Positions 43,113 to 50,873 of a stretch of 59,735 nucleotides of DNA are shown piece after piece. A program made the position numbers and the translations under genes. Under the pieces are notes generated by a model that saw only the letters and a list, made by a program, of their open reading frames with translations, made no database searches and was not told the DNA's origin. Within the stretch, counting starts at the first letter, position 1. Every line of letters begins with the position of its first letter. The stretch lies in the NCBI GenBank assembly GCA_028277205.1, contig JANQGT010000006.1:1-59735 (forward strand). Direction: 5' to 3'. Source of the DNA: Candidatus Altimarinota bacterium (GTDB lineage Bacteria > Patescibacteriota > Gracilibacteria > BD1-5 > UBA2023).

Positions 43113-43733
43113 ATGTTTATGGACAAACAATCGGAACATGCTCGTAGTGCGGCGCCGCCAAAAGCGCAGATTTCGATAGACAAAATCAAGATCGCGCTTT
43201 CGAGGCGCATCGAAGCAATAATCTGACATCGCATAGCATGCGATCAGATTCACATATCCGTCCCCTATAGGGACGATCGGGTGTTTCCAAAAATCAATCT
43301 CTCTCGACTGTCAGCAGTATTGCCGACGTGTGCACTTTCCCATGTTTGTGATATTTTGGATGATTTGTGAATCGTCACTGTGTTGCCACTCTGAATCACT
43401 AAGCACTATATACTCGTACAGGAGACGACAAGAAATCGCGAAGCGCTTTCATGATGCACGCTACAGCAAAATTGTTTGGATAGTGCATATCTTGAAGGGG
43501 CGCTGGTTTGAATACGAGTGTACGTAAATGTACATACGAAGGGATATAGCACTCACAGGGTCATGCATGTTTTTCCTCTGGAGGATTTTGACGAGCTGTT
43601 GGAGTCATGTGGTATCCCGCTTGACCTGCTTCAGGTAAGCCGCGCTGATCTCCGACAATCTACATCCGCACCTCGCACCGGCGGACATAGTGCTCCGCCG
43701 CAGCTGCGAGTGTATGCATCTGATCACGAGTAA
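43113..43733 (+). CDS. Hypothetical protein, code-25 frame only
   Basis: 206 residues from ATG to TAA with five UGA codons; such a long frame without UAA or UAG is unlikely by chance. Segments such as FPKINLSRLSAVLPTCALSH and CDILDDLGIVTVLPLG look protein-like, with one UGA giving a sensible Gly in DDLGIV. The last 74 bp overlap the end of nrdG on the other strand, so the true end may be earlier, or the frame may be fortuitous. No family recognised. Confidence 0.4.
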
Positions 43734-44361
43734 ACGATCCTCCGACGAAATCGGGATCGAGCGTTTTTTCACTGCGAAAATTTTGGATGGCGTAGTGCGG
43801 TGCATCCGGGATCTCACGGGTGATCGACTGCATGATCGTCGGCGTGTGCCAGTCCCGTATGACCGTCGTGCGAAATTCGTACTGTACGCCCGATGCGCGA
43901 ATGAGAGCGATGCTCCGGCGATAGCGCTCGGGACCGACATGTCTCCCGGCGAGCTCGACGTACCGATCGAGGGGAAATTTTATATCCATCGCGACCGCAT
44001 TCACGAGTCATTTTCGCAGCAGATATTCCAGCATATCGGGATTGCCGCCATTCGTATCGAGCTTTATCAGAAATCCGCGCGCGCGGATTTTTTCCAAAAA
44101 CTCTGGCAAATCGCGGTGGATCGTCGGCTCGCCTCCGCAGATGACGACACCGTCCAAAAGTCCCCGACGCGAATCGAGAAACCGGAAAAATATCGACTCG
44201 GGGATAAACGACGACGTAAGCCTCTGGATCGCATCGGGGAGGACAAATTCCGGATTGTAGCAGTAGCGGCATCGCAGAGTGCACCCCGGCGTAAAGGCAA
44301 TGGCGGCGAGCTTTCCGGGGTAGTCGATGTGGGTGAGCTTTTGGACTCCGGACAGGCGCAT
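43660..44361 (-). CDS. nrdG: Anaerobic ribonucleoside-triphosphate reductase activating protein
   Basis: 233 residues. Radical SAM enzyme: the CxxxCxxC cluster motif is CTLRCRYCYNPEF near residue 29, followed by GGEPTIHRDLPEF and the DTNGGNPDMLEYLL region. One UGA-Gly at 44008. It generates the glycyl radical on NrdD. The start at 44361 is 1 nt after the stop of the separate glycyl-radical gene, so the two are tightly coupled; an in-frame ATG at 44412 would overlap that gene. Unlike the short E. coli type, the protein has a C-terminal extension of about 80 residues common in the larger NrdG group. Confidence 0.92.
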
Positions 44362-44362
44362 A

Positions 44363-44542
44363 CTAGGAAAAATCCCGCAGAAATGCAGAGTTTGCGGATG
44401 CGCACTCGTCAAAATACGTACGCGAGTAAAACTCGGCTTTTTTCCCGTGATTGAACTGCTCGACGGGTCGGTAGTATCCCATGACGCGGGTGTAGATCTG
44501 GCAGCGGGTGCGCTTTTTTGCGCCGGTGTCGTGTGCGGACAT
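44363..44542 (-). CDS. Free-standing glycyl-radical domain of class III ribonucleotide reductase
   Basis: 59 residues, ATG to TAG. Residues 13-50 read RCQIYTRVMGYYRPV then EQFNHGKKAEFYSRTYF, the C-terminal glycyl-radical segment of NrdD; Gly22 in RVMGYY is the expected radical site. In known NrdD proteins this segment is the end of the same chain, after the zinc site. Here the main NrdD stops at TAG 44587 and this piece starts 44 bp further on in another frame with its own ATG, then is followed 1 nt later by nrdG. The parallel is GrcA/YfiD, the small spare glycyl-radical protein of pyruvate formate-lyase. Function as a trans-acting radical subunit is inferred. A GGAGG lies about 27 nt upstream, too far for a normal start. 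Confidence 0.8.
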   Translation of the reverse strand: MSAHDTGAKKRTRCQIYTRVMGYYRPVEQFNHGKKAEFYSRTYFDECASANSAFLRDFS

Positions 44543-44586: not shown

Positions 44587-46800
44587 CTATCCCGTATCCG
44601 ATACGGCGAGTGCATCGGCGATTTTCGCCTCCCGACGCTCGGTGTAGCGTGCGCGGGTTTCGTGATCCCGATCGTCCTCGCCCGTGTAGCCCATCTCCTC
44701 GTCGCAGCGCGGACAAAAATCGTGCTCGCCCGGGATGTATCCGTGGATCGGGCAGACGGAAAATGTGGGCGTGATGGTGATATACGGCATCCGGTAGCGC
44801 GAGACGACGCGCCGCACGAGGGCTTTGCAGGCGCGAATATCGGAGATGCGCTCGCCGAGATAGAGGTGCATGACTGTCCCGCCCGTGTACCGGCACTGCA
44901 GCTCGTCCTGGGCGTCGAGCGCCTGAAAGGCGTCGTCGGTGTAGCCGACCGGCAGCTGTGAAGAATTGGTATAAAATGGTGCCTCCTCGGTCCCTGCCTG
45001 GATGATACCGGGTATCTGGGCGCGATCCTCACGCGCAAACCGGTACGTCGTCCCCTCGGCGGGGGTCGCCTCCAGATTGTAGAGATTGCCGGTTTCCTCC
45101 TGGTATTCACGCAGTACGTCCCGCATGAAATCAAGTATCTCGAGCGCAAAAGCACGTCCATGCTCGGTCGAGATAGTGTGCTCGTCTCGACTGAAATTTC
45201 GGATGGCTTCATTCATACCATTGATCCCGATCGTCGAAAAGTGATTTCGAAATGTTTTCAAATATCGCGCGGTCGCGGGATACAGCCCCCGATCGAGCCA
45301 GTCGGAGAGGACGCGCCGCTTGATCTCAAGCGATTCTTTCGCGGTGTCCATGAGCGTCCGGAGCCTCTGGAAAAATCCATCCCGATCGAGCGCGCACAGC
45401 GCGCCGATCCTGGGCAGATTGATCGTGACGACGCCCAGCGAGCCCGTCATCTCCGCCGATCCAAAGAGACCGTTTCCCCGTTTCAAAAGCTCCCGCAGAT
45501 CCAGCTGCAGACGGCAGCACATGCTGCGCACGGCGCCCGGCTCGTAGGCGTGTTCGTTTTTTCGGCGCTCGATCGAGCCGTCCGGATTTCTGGTATATTC
45601 GTACTGTGATCCGACGAAGTTTTGAAAATAGGGGATTCCGTATTTTGCCGTCATCTCGAAAAGGGCGTCGACATCCGGATCATCCCAGGGAAAATCCTCC
45701 GTGATATTGTATGTCGGGATGGGAAAGGTAAATACTCGTCCCTTCGCGTCGCCTGCCAGATAGACCTCGATGAGTGCGCGATTTATGAGGCGGCGCTCGC
45801 GATCCAGCTCTCCAAAGGTTTTTTCGTAAGGTGCGCGGTCGTATCCGCCCATCTGCAGACGCTTTTCCGAGAGATCATCGGGACACGTCCAGTCGAGCGT
45901 GATATTGGTAAACGGGGTCTGCGTTCCCCAGCGCGACGGGACATTCATGCCAAATACGAAGTTTTGCATATTTTGCACGACATAGCGATACACGCGATCC
46001 TCTATGTGAGTCTCTCGCGCGCTGTCGCTTTCAAAGCTCGCATTGACCGTCTCCAGCTGTTCTTCGAGTTCCTTTCGATATTTGTGCACAAACGGGGAGA
46101 GATACGTATCAAACGATGAAAATGCCTGCGCGCCCGCCCATTCGTTTTGCAGTGTGCCGAAAAAATTGATCATCTGATTGACCGCCGACTGCAGATTCAT
46201 GGGCGGTGTCGACTCCATCGCTGACGGAATTCCATTGAATCCCTCCTCCAAAAGCATCCGCAGACTCCATCCCGCGCAGTACCCCGCAAACATAGAGAGA
46301 TCATGAATGTGCAGATCGCCATTTCTATGGGTGTCGCCGATATGGCGCGGATAGATGTGCGACAGCCAGTAGTTTGCCGTGACCTTTCCGGAGGTATTCA
46401 GGATCAGACCGCCCAGAGAGTAGCCGGAGTTTGCGTTTTCATTCACGCGCCAGTCCGCTTTTGACAGGTATTCGTCCATGGTGCGCCCGACCTCCACGAC
46501 GATATCGCGTCCCTGCCGCAGACGGGCGTGCTCCTCCCGGTAGAGGATGTAGGCGCGTGCCACATCCTCGTATCCGCGCTGCATCAGTACGCGCTCGACA
46601 CTGTCTTGGATATTTTCGATATCGGGGATCGTGTCGGCCTGCGATTCGAGCTCGCTGACGACCTCATCGGTGATGGATGCGGACTCGGCGATGCCATCGG
46701 GACGATGCGCTTCAAATGCTTTTTTGATCGCGCGCTCGATGCGACTGCGATCAAAGCTCTCGATACCACCGTTTCGTTTACGGACTTTGAAAATAGGCAT
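44587..46800 (-). CDS. nrdD: Anaerobic (class III) ribonucleotide reductase large part, lacking the glycyl-radical end
   Basis: 737 residues, no UGA. An ATP-cone (about 3-95, VRKRNGGIESFD) is followed by the ten-stranded barrel with NGDLHIHDLSMFAGYCAGWS and the active-site Cys pair in RSMCCRLQ, then FSTIGINGMNEAI, and a zinc site CPIHGYIPGEHDFCPRC near residue 700. The chain ends soon after in an unrelated acidic/basic tail; the RVxGY radical loop is missing and is encoded by the next gene. The enzyme reduces ribonucleoside triphosphates without oxygen. Two NrdR-type boxes lie just upstream. Confidence 0.93.
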   Translation of the reverse strand: MPIFKVRKRNGGIESFDRSRIERAIKKAFEAHRPDGIAESASITDEVVSELESQADTIPDIENIQDSVERVLMQRGYEDVARAYILYREEHARLRQGRDIVVEVGRTMDEYLSKADWRVNENANSGYSLGGLILNTSGKVTANYWLSHIYPRHIGDTHRNGDLHIHDLSMFAGYCAGWSLRMLLEEGFNGIPSAMESTPPMNLQSAVNQMINFFGTLQNEWAGAQAFSSFDTYLSPFVHKYRKELEEQLETVNASFESDSARETHIEDRVYRYVVQNMQNFVFGMNVPSRWGTQTPFTNITLDWTCPDDLSEKRLQMGGYDRAPYEKTFGELDRERRLINRALIEVYLAGDAKGRVFTFPIPTYNITEDFPWDDPDVDALFEMTAKYGIPYFQNFVGSQYEYTRNPDGSIERRKNEHAYEPGAVRSMCCRLQLDLRELLKRGNGLFGSAEMTGSLGVVTINLPRIGALCALDRDGFFQRLRTLMDTAKESLEIKRRVLSDWLDRGLYPATARYLKTFRNHFSTIGINGMNEAIRNFSRDEHTISTEHGRAFALEILDFMRDVLREYQEETGNLYNLEATPAEGTTYRFAREDRAQIPGIIQAGTEEAPFYTNSSQLPVGYTDDAFQALDAQDELQCRYTGGTVMHLYLGERISDIRACKALVRRVVSRYRMPYITITPTFSVCPIHGYIPGEHDFCPRCDEEMGYTGEDDRDHETRARYTERREAKIADALAVSDTG

Positions 46801-47287: not shown

Positions 47288-48769
47288 ATGATCAAAAACG
47301 TCCGTATCATCCCCGGGTGCATCGCCTGCAAGACCTGCGAAAATATCTGTCCGCAGGTGTTTCATATCGAGGGGACGAGCCGGGTAATCGGCTATGATTT
47401 TGAAAAATACCGGCAGGCGGTCCTGCGCGCCGAGCGGATGTGCCCCGTCAATGTGATAAAGGTCGATCGTGACGATACGGAGGCGGTGGCGGAGGCATTT
47501 GCGGAGGCGACGCTCATAGAGTCTCGATACCTCACGCGGGATGTGCTCGCGCTCTCATTTGGCGTTCGGGAGTTTTCGGCGGTGGCGGGACAGTACGTCT
47601 CCGTGCGTCTGCGGGATAGTGACGGAGAGTTCGTGCGGTCGTATTCGCTCGTCGAGTTTTCTGCAGCGCAGATCACACTCTGGGTAAAAATCCTGCCGGA
47701 CGGACGGGGCGGACGAGTGCTTTCATCGCTTGCTGCCGGTGATCGGGTGGGTATTTCTGAGGCGCTCGGGCATTTCGTCGTGGCGGAGCCGGATATCCCT
47801 CATGCATTCGTGGCGACGGGGACGGGACTCGCGCCGGTGATCCCCATGCTGCGTGCGCTGCCCGCCGATACACCAAAACTCGTGTTTTTCGGTGTGAGGA
47901 CGCAGGCGGATGTATTCGCTGCAGATATCCTCTCCGCCATTCCAAACACCCGTACGATCATCACCTGCTCGCGACCCTCGGACGCATGGTCGGGCGAGCG
48001 CGGACGCGTGACGGATCACCTGCAGCATATCACCTCCGATATGCACGTCTCTATCTGCGGCAATCCCGCGATGGTCGATGCAGTGGAACGTACGCTCACG
48101 GATCGATGACACGACCGGGCGCGCATACTGTCGGAGCGCTATGTGGATCAGTCCGCCGACACCCTGACGCCCCGATCGTGGATCGCACGCATCGTATGGG
48201 ACGGTGAGATCGGTACCTTCGTGCGGGTGGCGCACTATGTACTGCTCACACTCTCTGCGGCGGTCCCATTCGCATGGGGATATGCGCCGAGTCTGCGGGG
48301 AGATCTGTGGGATGTCAGCTGGTATGCCGTCACACTGCTCATGTGCATCCGTCCCATCGGTGATCTCTTGCCGGATGTGTTTCTCTTTCGGGCGCTGCTG
48401 CCGCTGCGACAGGGACTCGGTATCCTGTCGTCGGTGGTCGTCGCGACCAATGCGGGATTTGCCTATCTGCCGGATTTTGCAAATTTTCTCACTCTCTACA
48501 CTTCGGCGCGCATGTGGGGATTTGAGACCCGACTGCTCTTTGCACGGCTGGCTGAAATCGTGGGTATCATCCTCCTCATCACCTCAAACTCTCTGAGTCA
48601 GCGTCTGCTCGGCAAATGGTGGAAACGCATCCAGCGACTGTCGTACGTGTATTTTTTCGCGGCGGGGATCTATCTGGCGCATATCGGATCCGATGCGGCG
48701 ATCCCAGCGATGATCCTCGTCGGTGCGCTCTGGATCGCGGCATTTGTGAAAAATCGACGATCCAGCTAG
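47288..48769 (+). CDS. Fusion of ferredoxin, flavin reductase and ferric-reductase-like membrane domain
   Basis: 493 residues with one UGA-Gly at 48107 that joins the soluble and membrane halves. Residues 1-60: ferredoxin with CxxCxxCxxxCP (Cys11, 14, 17, 21) and a further CysPro at 52. Residues about 70-272: FNR-type module with the FAD motif RSYSLVEF and the nucleotide motif ATGTGLAPV. Residues about 300-490: five or six membrane helices with GLGILSSVVVATNAGF and LLGKWWKRIQRLSYV, resembling YedZ/MsrQ ferric-reductase-like domains, though only one or two of the usual haem His remain (HYVLL, LAHIG). It could pass electrons from NAD(P)H or ferredoxin across the membrane. ApbE and an FMN-binding lipoprotein lie downstream on the other strand. 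Confidence 0.85.
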
Positions 48770-48965
48770 TACGCCGTCGCATAGTGGCGTATTTCGGGTA
48801 CGATACTCGCGACCGCGCTCGGGGATGCACGCGGCGCCCGTCCTCGACGGGCACTGTACTGCGCTCGGACTTTTCATACGAGAGCGATACTGCGGTCATA
48901 CATCCACATCTGCAGAAAAAAATATGGCTCTCAACGAGCAGAGAGTATCCCATATACTCTCTGCT

Positions 48966-49316
48966 ATGATTTCATATGCGAAAATATCACGATACAAAAT
49001 AGGGAGAATTTTTTACTATTTTTTCGAAGATTTTACTGCTATTCAGACAGCAAAAATTACCAGGTTGAATCGAAACACCACTAATCTCTGGTACAATCAT
49101 TTTCGACAGGCAATTGTTCCCATCTCAATCAATCAAACACAGAAGCTCACAGAGTTTGAAGTTGATGAGAGTTATTTCTCAGTAAAAAGAGTACGTTGAA
49201 AGCGATGAAGAGGTGCAGCAGGTAAAACTCCTGTACTCTGACTCCTGAAACGAGATGGCAAGGTATTCGCCTCCGTCATGAAACGATGCCTAAAAAAAGA
49301 AAGTCTGCCAGTCTAG
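48966..49316 (+). pseudogene. Truncated IS1595-type transposase
   Basis: 116 residues remain. EVDESYF with the first catalytic Asp and the following VRGKRGRGAAGKTPVLGLLK are diagnostic for ISXO2/IS1595 transposases. Three of the glycines in that stretch are UGA, so the element was functional under code 25. The C-terminal catalytic part is missing after TAG 49314-49316, and I see no terminal inverted repeats. The remnant lies between the redox fusion gene and apbE. Confidence 0.8.
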
Positions 49317-49511
49317 ATCCAAATATGATCATCATGCGATGTGTTTTCTCGTCGTTTCGCTTTCGTGTGCATGGTTGAAAATCCGCTCATTCGTCAGATC
49401 GCGAGCGTGCATGCAGCCACAAGCACGCGTCTTACAAGCGCTGTCGTCTGGCTGTCGCGATGGCATCGCACTCTCTCGGAGAGCTCTCTGATACCGACTG
49501 TCAAAATAGCA

Positions 49512-50381
49512 TTAGCCGTCCACCCCGAAAAAAGCGGCGGGAAATTTTCGGCGGTATATATCGCCGTCTCTCGCGATGAGGAGGACTGATAGATCATGCG
49601 TCTCGGCGAGCATTTTCGCGTGATCGTATCCCGAGACAAAGCAAGCGGTAGACCATCCGTCGGCGACGATGCCAGCTTCGGCGAGCACCCAGACCGCCGT
49701 CATGTCCGACGCGGGCGCGAGCGTCTGTGCATCCACGAGGTGATGACGATCCCGCCACTGCCGGACGAGAGGACTCGATCCCGCCAGAAAATATCCGTCG
49801 AGCACTGTCTCGCCGATGGCTCGCCGGGTGTCTGTGGGATGTCCGAGCAGCGCCCGCCACGGACGTCCGTCCGGGGTATATCCGCGGGCGTATACATCTC
49901 CGCCCGCATTGATAAATATATTTTCACAAGCATTGAGGCAGTGCGCCATGCGATCCAGAGCGTATCATTTTCCGATGGCGCCGATCTCTATCGATCCTGT
50001 CACACGTATGCGTGCGTCCTCGCTGATCTCGTACGATCCGAGCTGTGTGTCCAGTATTTCCCGATCCAGACGATATTCGGCGTCGTAGCCCCATCATTCC
50101 AGTATCGGCTTTATGCCTAGGGAAAACGCGCCGCCGGTAGCCGACTCGAAAAATTTTCCCCACCGCAAAAGCAAAAGAAGCTCATCCGAGACCCGTGTCC
50201 ACTCGCCTGCCGAGTGATTCAGACGCGCCAGCTCATTTCCCTCGATAAATCGTGAATACGCCGCCTCGATCCGGCGCGTCTCGGAAAATGCTGCCCCCAC
50301 GAGCTCTAGGAGGTGTGGAGTATCGGGATGGACGGCGATGCGGATCCGGGTACCGAGGATCGTCTCGGTGCGATCGATCAT
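49512..50381 (-). CDS. apbE: FAD:protein FMN transferase
   Basis: 289 residues. Opening ETILGTRIRIAV, the FAD-binding IEIGAIGKGYALDRM, AGGDVYARG, and the C-terminal GWSTACFVSG are characteristic of ApbE; the catalytic region is intact. One UGA-Gly at 50094. No signal peptide is evident in the first 20 residues, although many ApbE proteins are exported. The enzyme attaches FMN to Thr or Ser of target proteins outside the membrane. The obvious target is the FMN-binding lipoprotein encoded 6 bp upstream in the same operon. Confidence 0.93.
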
Positions 50382-50387
50382 GGCGGA

Positions 50388-50873
50388 TTATTCGACGGTG
50401 GTCTCGGTATCGGTCTCGGCTCCATCCTCAGCTCCAGCAGTGGTGTCATCCTCGTCTTCAGTAGCAGTCTCATCAGCGCTCGCCTGCATCGCTATCGCCT
50501 CCAGCGCCTCGGCAAACGCTGTGGAGGCGAGCGACGCTCCGCTCACATATCCGAGCTCTTTTGCTTCATCGAGCGTTTTTCCGATCATTTTCTCCGAAAG
50601 TCCGTTTTTGATTTCCTCGGCGTATCCCTGGACGGTGTGCGCATTTTCACCGGGATCCGGCGTGATCGAGAGCGACTCTATCGCCCCGTCAGAGAGGGTC
50701 ACGGCGACATCCATGTAAAAAGCGTACTCGTCGTCCGCCCCTGCCGCATAGGTCTCGCGGTGGACGTATGTCCCGTCGCGCAGAGCGGCGGACTCGGTAT
50801 CCGTACACGAGGCGAGGATCGTGGCGGAGGCGATCACGCTTGCGATCGTAGAGAGCAGAGAAATGCGGGACAT
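50388..50873 (-). CDS. FMN-binding-domain lipoprotein
   Basis: 161 residues. Signal peptide with lipobox LASC (Cys23). The FMN_bind domain (about 35-130) ends in VSGASLASTAFAEAL, matching the SGA(T/S)xx(S/T) flavinylation site used by ApbE, here with Ser in place of the usual Thr. An acidic low-complexity tail follows. It probably carries covalent FMN on the outer face of the membrane and receives electrons from the membrane fusion protein or a similar donor. First gene of an operon with apbE; an 8-bp inverted repeat lies over its promoter region. Confidence 0.88.
   Translation of the reverse strand: MSRISLLSTIASVIASATILASCTDTESAALRDGTYVHRETYAAGADDEYAFYMDVAVTLSDGAIESLSITPDPGENAHTVQGYAEEIKNGLSEKMIGKTLDEAKELGYVSGASLASTAFAEALEAIAMQASADETATEDEDDTTAGAEDGAETDTETTVE

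Follow-up and report, generated by a model that had tools for sequence, protein, structure and literature searches.

Haems are the defining feature of ferric-reductase domains, and the locus analysed here raises the question of whether a membrane domain of this ancestry, now devoid of the haem ligands, may still carry electrons across the membrane to a flavin on an exported protein. The window (the whole stretch of 59,735 nucleotides that was analysed) belongs to a gracilibacterial genome of 1.06 Mb in 52 contigs, and the source bacterium is predicted to be host-dependent. The genes and domains of the locus are as follows.

47288..48769, + strand: fusion gene of 493 amino acid residues (code 25), comprising a 4Fe-4S ferredoxin, an FNR flavoreductase and a six-helix, haem-less MsrQ-like membrane domain
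47288..47473, + strand: single-cluster ferredoxin domain (Fer4_13), with Cys 11, 14, 17 and 52 invariant in a 14-sequence alignment
47501..48148, + strand: FNR-type FAD/NAD(P) module (Pfam)
48203..48766, + strand: membrane domain, with transmembrane helices (TM) at about residues 311-332, 334-360, 373-404, 416-432, 451-465 and 471-492 (AF2 secondary structure)
48924..49313, + strand: transposase remnant of ISXO2/IS1595 type (PF12762, E 4e-5, below the cut-off)
49512..50381, - strand: apbE, FAD:protein FMN transferase (PF02424, E 1e-45), without a signal peptide
50388..50873, - strand: lipoprotein with an FMN_bind-like domain and lipobox Cys23, six bases upstream of apbE

The original prediction that a ferredoxin, a flavin reductase and a ferric-reductase-like membrane domain are joined in one polypeptide was borne out at the predicted coordinates. 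In the code-25 translation, Fer4_13 (residues 11-59, E 2e-8), FAD_binding_6 (residues 74-163, E 4e-8) and NAD_binding_1 (residues 174-267, E 1e-15) were all above the Pfam cut-offs, and the C-terminal part matched no Pfam family, PF01794 included. An AF2 model of the fusion, built on an alignment with 21 relatives, had a mean pLDDT of 87.5 and folded the C-terminal stretch into six helices, with values mostly above 85 in the membrane domain. The solved structures closest to the FNR part were the reductases of dioxygenases and monooxygenases, cytochrome b5 reductase and NqrF. The two neighbours that had been predicted fared differently, in that ApbE was assigned firmly through PF02424, whereas the lipoprotein fell just short of the FMN_bind family (PF04205; 20.9 bits against a cut-off of 22). 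The fusion gene is convergent to apbE and the lipoprotein gene, and the transposase remnant, which carries a UGA at an expected Gly position, lies between them; the nearest relative (L021) has these genes in the same convergent arrangement, with its fusion and apbE directly adjoining and no such gap. The region adjoining the module (43660-44412 and 44587-46800) holds genes for the anaerobic ribonucleotide reductase NrdD and for a radical SAM protein, and one in-frame UGA occurs there.

Because the fusion gene has one in-frame UGA and a transposase remnant adjoins it, the polypeptide might be an artefact, with two genes joined by reading through a true stop at a transposon-damaged locus.

48107..48109, + strand: in-frame UGA, read as Gly274; the Gly is invariant in the 14-sequence alignment

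This explanation is hardly credible. The UGA falls on the invariant Gly, and the two UGAs of the window apbE fall on G96 (in GWG) and within GAIGKG139 (the GxIGKG motif). A tRNA with a UCA anticodon is encoded in the window genome (L189, 1244-1322; ARAGORN labels it SeC, an assignment made from the anticodon), complete fusions without an internal UGA were found in two standard-code relatives (G077 and G314), and all three genes of the module have intact frames. A true stop at 48107, the doubt attached to the original prediction, was thus ruled out, as was noise in one genome, by the survey of relatives described below.

The full fusion was found in 18 of the 77 genomes of the order (one of the 18 copies is cut by a contig end), and elsewhere in the class in G114, G077 and G314, together with a truncated copy in G335 and a protein of the related domain order membrane-ferredoxin-FNR in G318. 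Among 380 genomes sampled from the phylum, the only matches were in the window genome and G314. A scan of GTDB 220 contigs, which used two peptide patterns only and may have missed further copies, returned full-length copies exclusively from records titled Gracilibacteria, Absconditabacteria, Altimarinus or unplaced Patescibacteria, the matches in named records being nearly all from Candidatus Gracilibacteria. The neighbours anticipated from the window sequence also recurred, and the co-occurrence on which the original prediction was staked was present: in a first survey apbE was detected in all 14 fusion genomes as against 27 of 45 others, and it lay within about two genes of the haem-less fusion in 13 of 20 cases, nine of these 13 loci having lipoprotein, apbE and fusion in a same-strand run. 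The remaining seven fusions (one on a 3.5-kb contig) are not beside apbE; their genomes have apbE elsewhere, and in G036, G053, G041 and G007 the distant apbE adjoins a similar lipoprotein gene. Additional operon partners were considered (DUF1722, DUF2177, DUF1295 and a photolyase 3' of the fusion in L024) and were set aside, as they recur only in closely related loci. Gene order of this kind is evidence of association rather than of function.

We then compared the membrane domain with its haem-type relatives, which pass PF01794 and have their haem His residues in TM3 and TM5. The positions of interest in the window protein are the following.

48449..48451, + strand: Asn388, aligned with the haem His that haem-type relatives have in TM3
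48545..48556, + strand: Arg420-x-x-Glu423, the new TM4 pair that is conserved in the haem-less clade (alignments and all-domain count)
48671..48673, + strand: Tyr462, aligned with the haem His that haem-type relatives have in TM5

A profile-profile comparison of the haem-less domains with ferric-reductase domains gave an hhalign value of 99.8 % (E 1e-27), and NCBIfam MsrQ matched weakly (E 0.0018). A PDB sequence search with the window membrane domain returned no match, and in a fold search with the whole fusion the matches listed covered the reductase part only, so that homology to the membrane fold of the ferric reductase/NOX superfamily is supported by sequence (hhalign, tree and alignment). 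Judged in this way, the domain descends from MsrQ/ferric-reductase domains. All 27 domains of the window clade have neither haem His and carry [R/H]xx[E/D] in TM4, whereas all 31 haem-type relatives have both His and no acid at the TM4 position; there were no mixed cases in this comparison, which covers all collected domains and in which the L266 row has a gap at the TM3 column. Bis-His ligation is accordingly absent from the window clade (0 of 27). In a tree of 41 domains the haem-less ones formed a single clade (support 100/99), which makes this a single loss event followed by long conservation; the 27-to-31 split reflects that one event, and the Fisher value calculated on it is not independent evidence. 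The domain from G314 (L152), which has the same domain order and both His, was placed beside the haem-less clade with weak support (80/43), and if this placement is right, the domain order changed before the haem was lost. Residues D342, R420, E423, T425, Q438 and Y455 are specific to the clade, and their conservation points to selection rather than decay. The original prediction had noted the loss of some haem His residues; the loss is real, and its extent was understated, since both conserved ligands are gone in the window and its close relatives. What is solid in the result, and also surprising, is that the haem was lost and a replacement pair became fixed. A literature search, limited to papers outside subscription, found none on haem-less ferric-reductase domains.

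Could haem still be bound through non-standard ligands? The window domain does have two His residues, located in TM1 and towards the end of TM5, but at every column of the haem-less set His occurs in at most 15 % of the rows, and several members have no His in the domain at all. In the alignment neither Cys nor His was conserved in the haem-less domain, and its only conserved Met residues were one shared with the haem-type relatives and one near the last helix; His, Cys and Met were rejected as alternative ligands for want of a suitable conserved residue. Of the 77 genomes of the order, two were found to encode ferrochelatase, and the window genome is not one of them, although haem uptake is possible; with the enzyme so rare in the order, independence from haem would make sense. 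We consider retention of haem very improbable. No recognisable transmembrane electron-carrying cofactor was identified in the haem-less domain. A flavinylation motif within it was also sought by eye on the alignment and rejected, as the stretch GILS[SA]x has no conserved acceptor position.

The loss of both ligands, with no replacement cofactor recognised, raises an alternative, namely that the membrane domain no longer carries electrons and serves as an anchor or dock for the ferredoxin-reductase, or as an ion path under its control, the lipoprotein being reduced in some other way; the buried charged pair would suit an ion path or a docking site no less than a cofactor. Against this stand relatives in which the ferredoxin-FNR part is absent. 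Seven further relatives have the haem-less domain as a separate protein or attached to another flavin reductase, and all seven loci are beside apbE, as compared with one of 19 stand-alone haem-type domains (some of the 19 on short contigs). The order lipoprotein, apbE, stand-alone haem-less domain was found in L159, L160 and L161 (genomes G029, G063 and G062) and, split over two contig pieces, in G045; in G290 and G265 no space separates apbE from the stand-alone domain, the two adjoining or overlapping; and in G632, sampled outside the class of the window, the stand-alone domain is accompanied by apbE and then an FNR gene. L267 is a locus with such a separate FNR gene beside the haem-less domain. 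The domain of G316 forms part of a fusion with an NADPH-dependent FMN reductase (FMN_red, E 6e-32), and apbE is located six bases upstream of it. The haem-less domain thus keeps the company of apbE and the FMN lipoprotein where the ferredoxin-FNR part is missing, and it sits between cytosolic flavin reductases and the FMN-carrier genes; this is our main reason for keeping the electron-conduit reading. Pairing with three kinds or placements of reductase is likewise conduit-like, and a plain anchor would not need it. We regard the anchor or dock explanation as unlikely. Apart from this, the FMN_red-membrane fusion of L266 (3569-4750) ends in SRLSQAS.

The putative flavin acceptor was examined together with its transferase.

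50532..50552, - strand: flavinylation-like site GYVSGAS in the lipoprotein, with Ser114 invariant

ApbE substrates carry the motif D-x-x-[ST]-G-A-[ST], with FMN attached to the last residue (PMC12052999). The putative flavinylation site of the original prediction is weaker than this motif: Gly112 and Ser114 are invariant in the alignment, and the window site has every part of the motif except the Asp, which several relatives have (e.g. DTISGASLTT in L176). The best Foldseek match of the lipoprotein was weak (E 1.4e-3), and its profile yielded only chance signal-peptide matches in the PDB. Lipoprotein diacylglyceryl transferase is encoded in 73 of the 77 genomes of the order, the window genome included. 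The window ApbE has the motifs GAIGKG, GGD, HH and ADGxSTA, and neither an N-terminal signal nor a lipobox was found on it. In the linked loci, leaving aside a few with longer upstream frames, the ApbE domain mostly starts a few residues after the start codon with no fitting signal peptide, and the lipoprotein stop codon is often less than 35 bases upstream of apbE. A signal-less ApbE is known from Klebsiella, where its substrate is cytosolic (PMC12052999). A cytosolic ApbE with an exported acceptor would require an unusual order of events, and from the missing signal peptide we infer that FMN is probably attached to the lipoprotein before export, which raises the question of whether export is possible for a chain that already carries its flavin. 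In the literature outside subscription, our search found no paper on flavinylation in Patescibacteria.

Several haem-less and haem-type loci also encode small exported proteins near apbE. These contain a signal or anchor segment and a low-complexity region, and their C-terminal residue is a Ser in the form [ST]xAS, which is like the last part of the flavinylation motif with another residue in place of Gly:

L178, 3925-4095: ends IDTKTRAS
L170, 10118-10291 and 10309-11358: two proteins; end in L170 YDTKTRAS
L039, 7712-8731: ends VDTTTKAS
L256, 5540-5890: ends RQSRAS
L267, 7740-8165: ends RQSRAS
L266, 2450-2671: ends RHSYAS
L255, 5967-6158: [ST]xAS end
L269, 3366-4376: [ST]xAS end
L151, 9613-10386: ends AVTRAS

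In a post hoc count (the pattern was noticed before it was tested), [ST]xA[ST] ends occurred in 13 of 569 distinct open frames within 5 kb of apbE (one of the 13 being the FMN_red-membrane fusion itself) and in 3 of 1400 elsewhere, two of these three coming from short loci that belong to the same systems. None of the other residues in place of Ala clustered near apbE. It is possible that these ends serve in nature as C-terminal flavin tags on proteins that have no FMN_bind domain, in which case FMN would sit on the C-terminal residue.

Taken together, the reading that we favour, with some reservation, is that the module is a haem-free derivative of MsrQ-like flavinylation systems that carries electrons to FMN on a surface lipoprotein; the three-gene kit would probably move electrons from the cell interior to a flavin on an outside protein. 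NAD(P)H and/or a reduced low-potential donor would feed the FAD and the [4Fe-4S] cluster of the fused cytosolic domains, and the electrons would cross through the six-helix membrane domain on a haem-independent route, with another cofactor near the TM4 R/H-x-x-E/D pair, or one supplied by the lipoprotein, as the putative substitute for haem. They would then reduce FMN esterified to Ser114 of the lipoprotein, attached by the signal-less ApbE most likely in the cytosol ahead of export, and the FMN lipoprotein would pass them to an outside acceptor. The minimal path to the outside in the original prediction is not supported as a complete one, given a membrane part with no known redox cofactor and an ApbE with no export signal. 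A bolder version, which is possible but doubtful, is that the ferric-reductase fold gave up haem and now holds a different redox cofactor within the membrane, perhaps a flavin, at a conserved [R/H]xx[E/D] site in bacteria that rarely make haem, that flavinylation occurs in the cytosol before export, and that sister lineages place the flavin on the last residue of short exported [ST]xAS tethers.

The direction of flow may also be questioned. The fused low-potential 4Fe-4S domain, the charged TM4 pair and a related rubredoxin protein of Vampirococcus, proposed to generate proton-motive force (PMC8080830), would suit inward flow from an outside donor through the FMN lipoprotein, or an exchange between ferredoxin and NAD(P) with ion coupling in the manner of a miniature Rnf. 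However, known FRD proteins move electrons outward (PMC11031084), no Rnf/Nqr-type membrane subunit was seen and ion pumping is speculative, and we judge this explanation to be improbable. Outward flow to the FMN lipoprotein, as favoured above, would offer Gracilibacteria a redox outlet; their relatives apparently have no standard electron transport chain (PMC8080830). A clade with a single loss of both ligands, a fixed charged pair and the company of flavin reductases and FMN carriers would also be a clean test of haem-free transmembrane electron transfer.

Among known systems, the likeness to extracytosolic flavinylation systems in the original prediction was supported, specifically for the MsrQ-like kind (PMC8238504), by the hhalign result and the gene order. 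Both cluster a six-helix ferric-reductase-type domain (the six TM helices here are those of the AF2 model) and an NAD-binding reductase with apbE and an FMN-binding gene, the latter just under the cut-off in the window. MsrQ-like systems have two haem sites and a C-terminal reductase and come mostly from Actinobacteria, whereas the window module, from Gracilibacteria, has no haem ligands and no PF01794 match, an N-terminal reductase behind a ferredoxin and a signal-less ApbE. The tripartite flavocytochrome-rubredoxin-FNR protein of Vampirococcus/Absconditabacteria (PMC8080830) shares the membrane domain and FNR blocks and the bacterial group, but has the reverse domain order, with rubredoxin instead of ferredoxin; the order membrane-rubredoxin-FNR was not found in the window fusion, and the equivalents that we surveyed keep both haem His. 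Related architectures were also observed, namely a 702-residue protein with a ferric-reductase membrane domain, rubredoxin and a glutamate-synthase domain (L037, 7038-9146), a membrane-rubredoxin-rubredoxin-FNR protein with tandem rubredoxins (L038, 8407-10047) and, beside a haem-type membrane domain, a putative exported lipoprotein with a 4Fe-4S ferredoxin domain (L166, 5501-5857). Two-subunit NQR/RNF-like systems, reported partly from CPR bacteria (PMC8238504), share an NqrF-like reductase and the haem-free route to an extracytosolic FMN domain that is proposed for the window module, but their membrane part is NqrB/RnfD and that of the window module is of ferric-reductase ancestry, with no PF03116 match in the window protein or the stand-alone domains. 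NADPH oxidase and SpNOX (PMC11031084) likewise join an FRD membrane domain to an FNR module; they have bis-His haems and reduce oxygen directly, in contrast to the window fusion with its FMN-carrier partner and no haem ligands. The module is best read, from its sequence, as a haem-less form of the MsrQ-like system that is new relative to both the haem-bearing MsrQ-like systems (PMC8238504) and the Vampirococcus cousin (PMC8080830).
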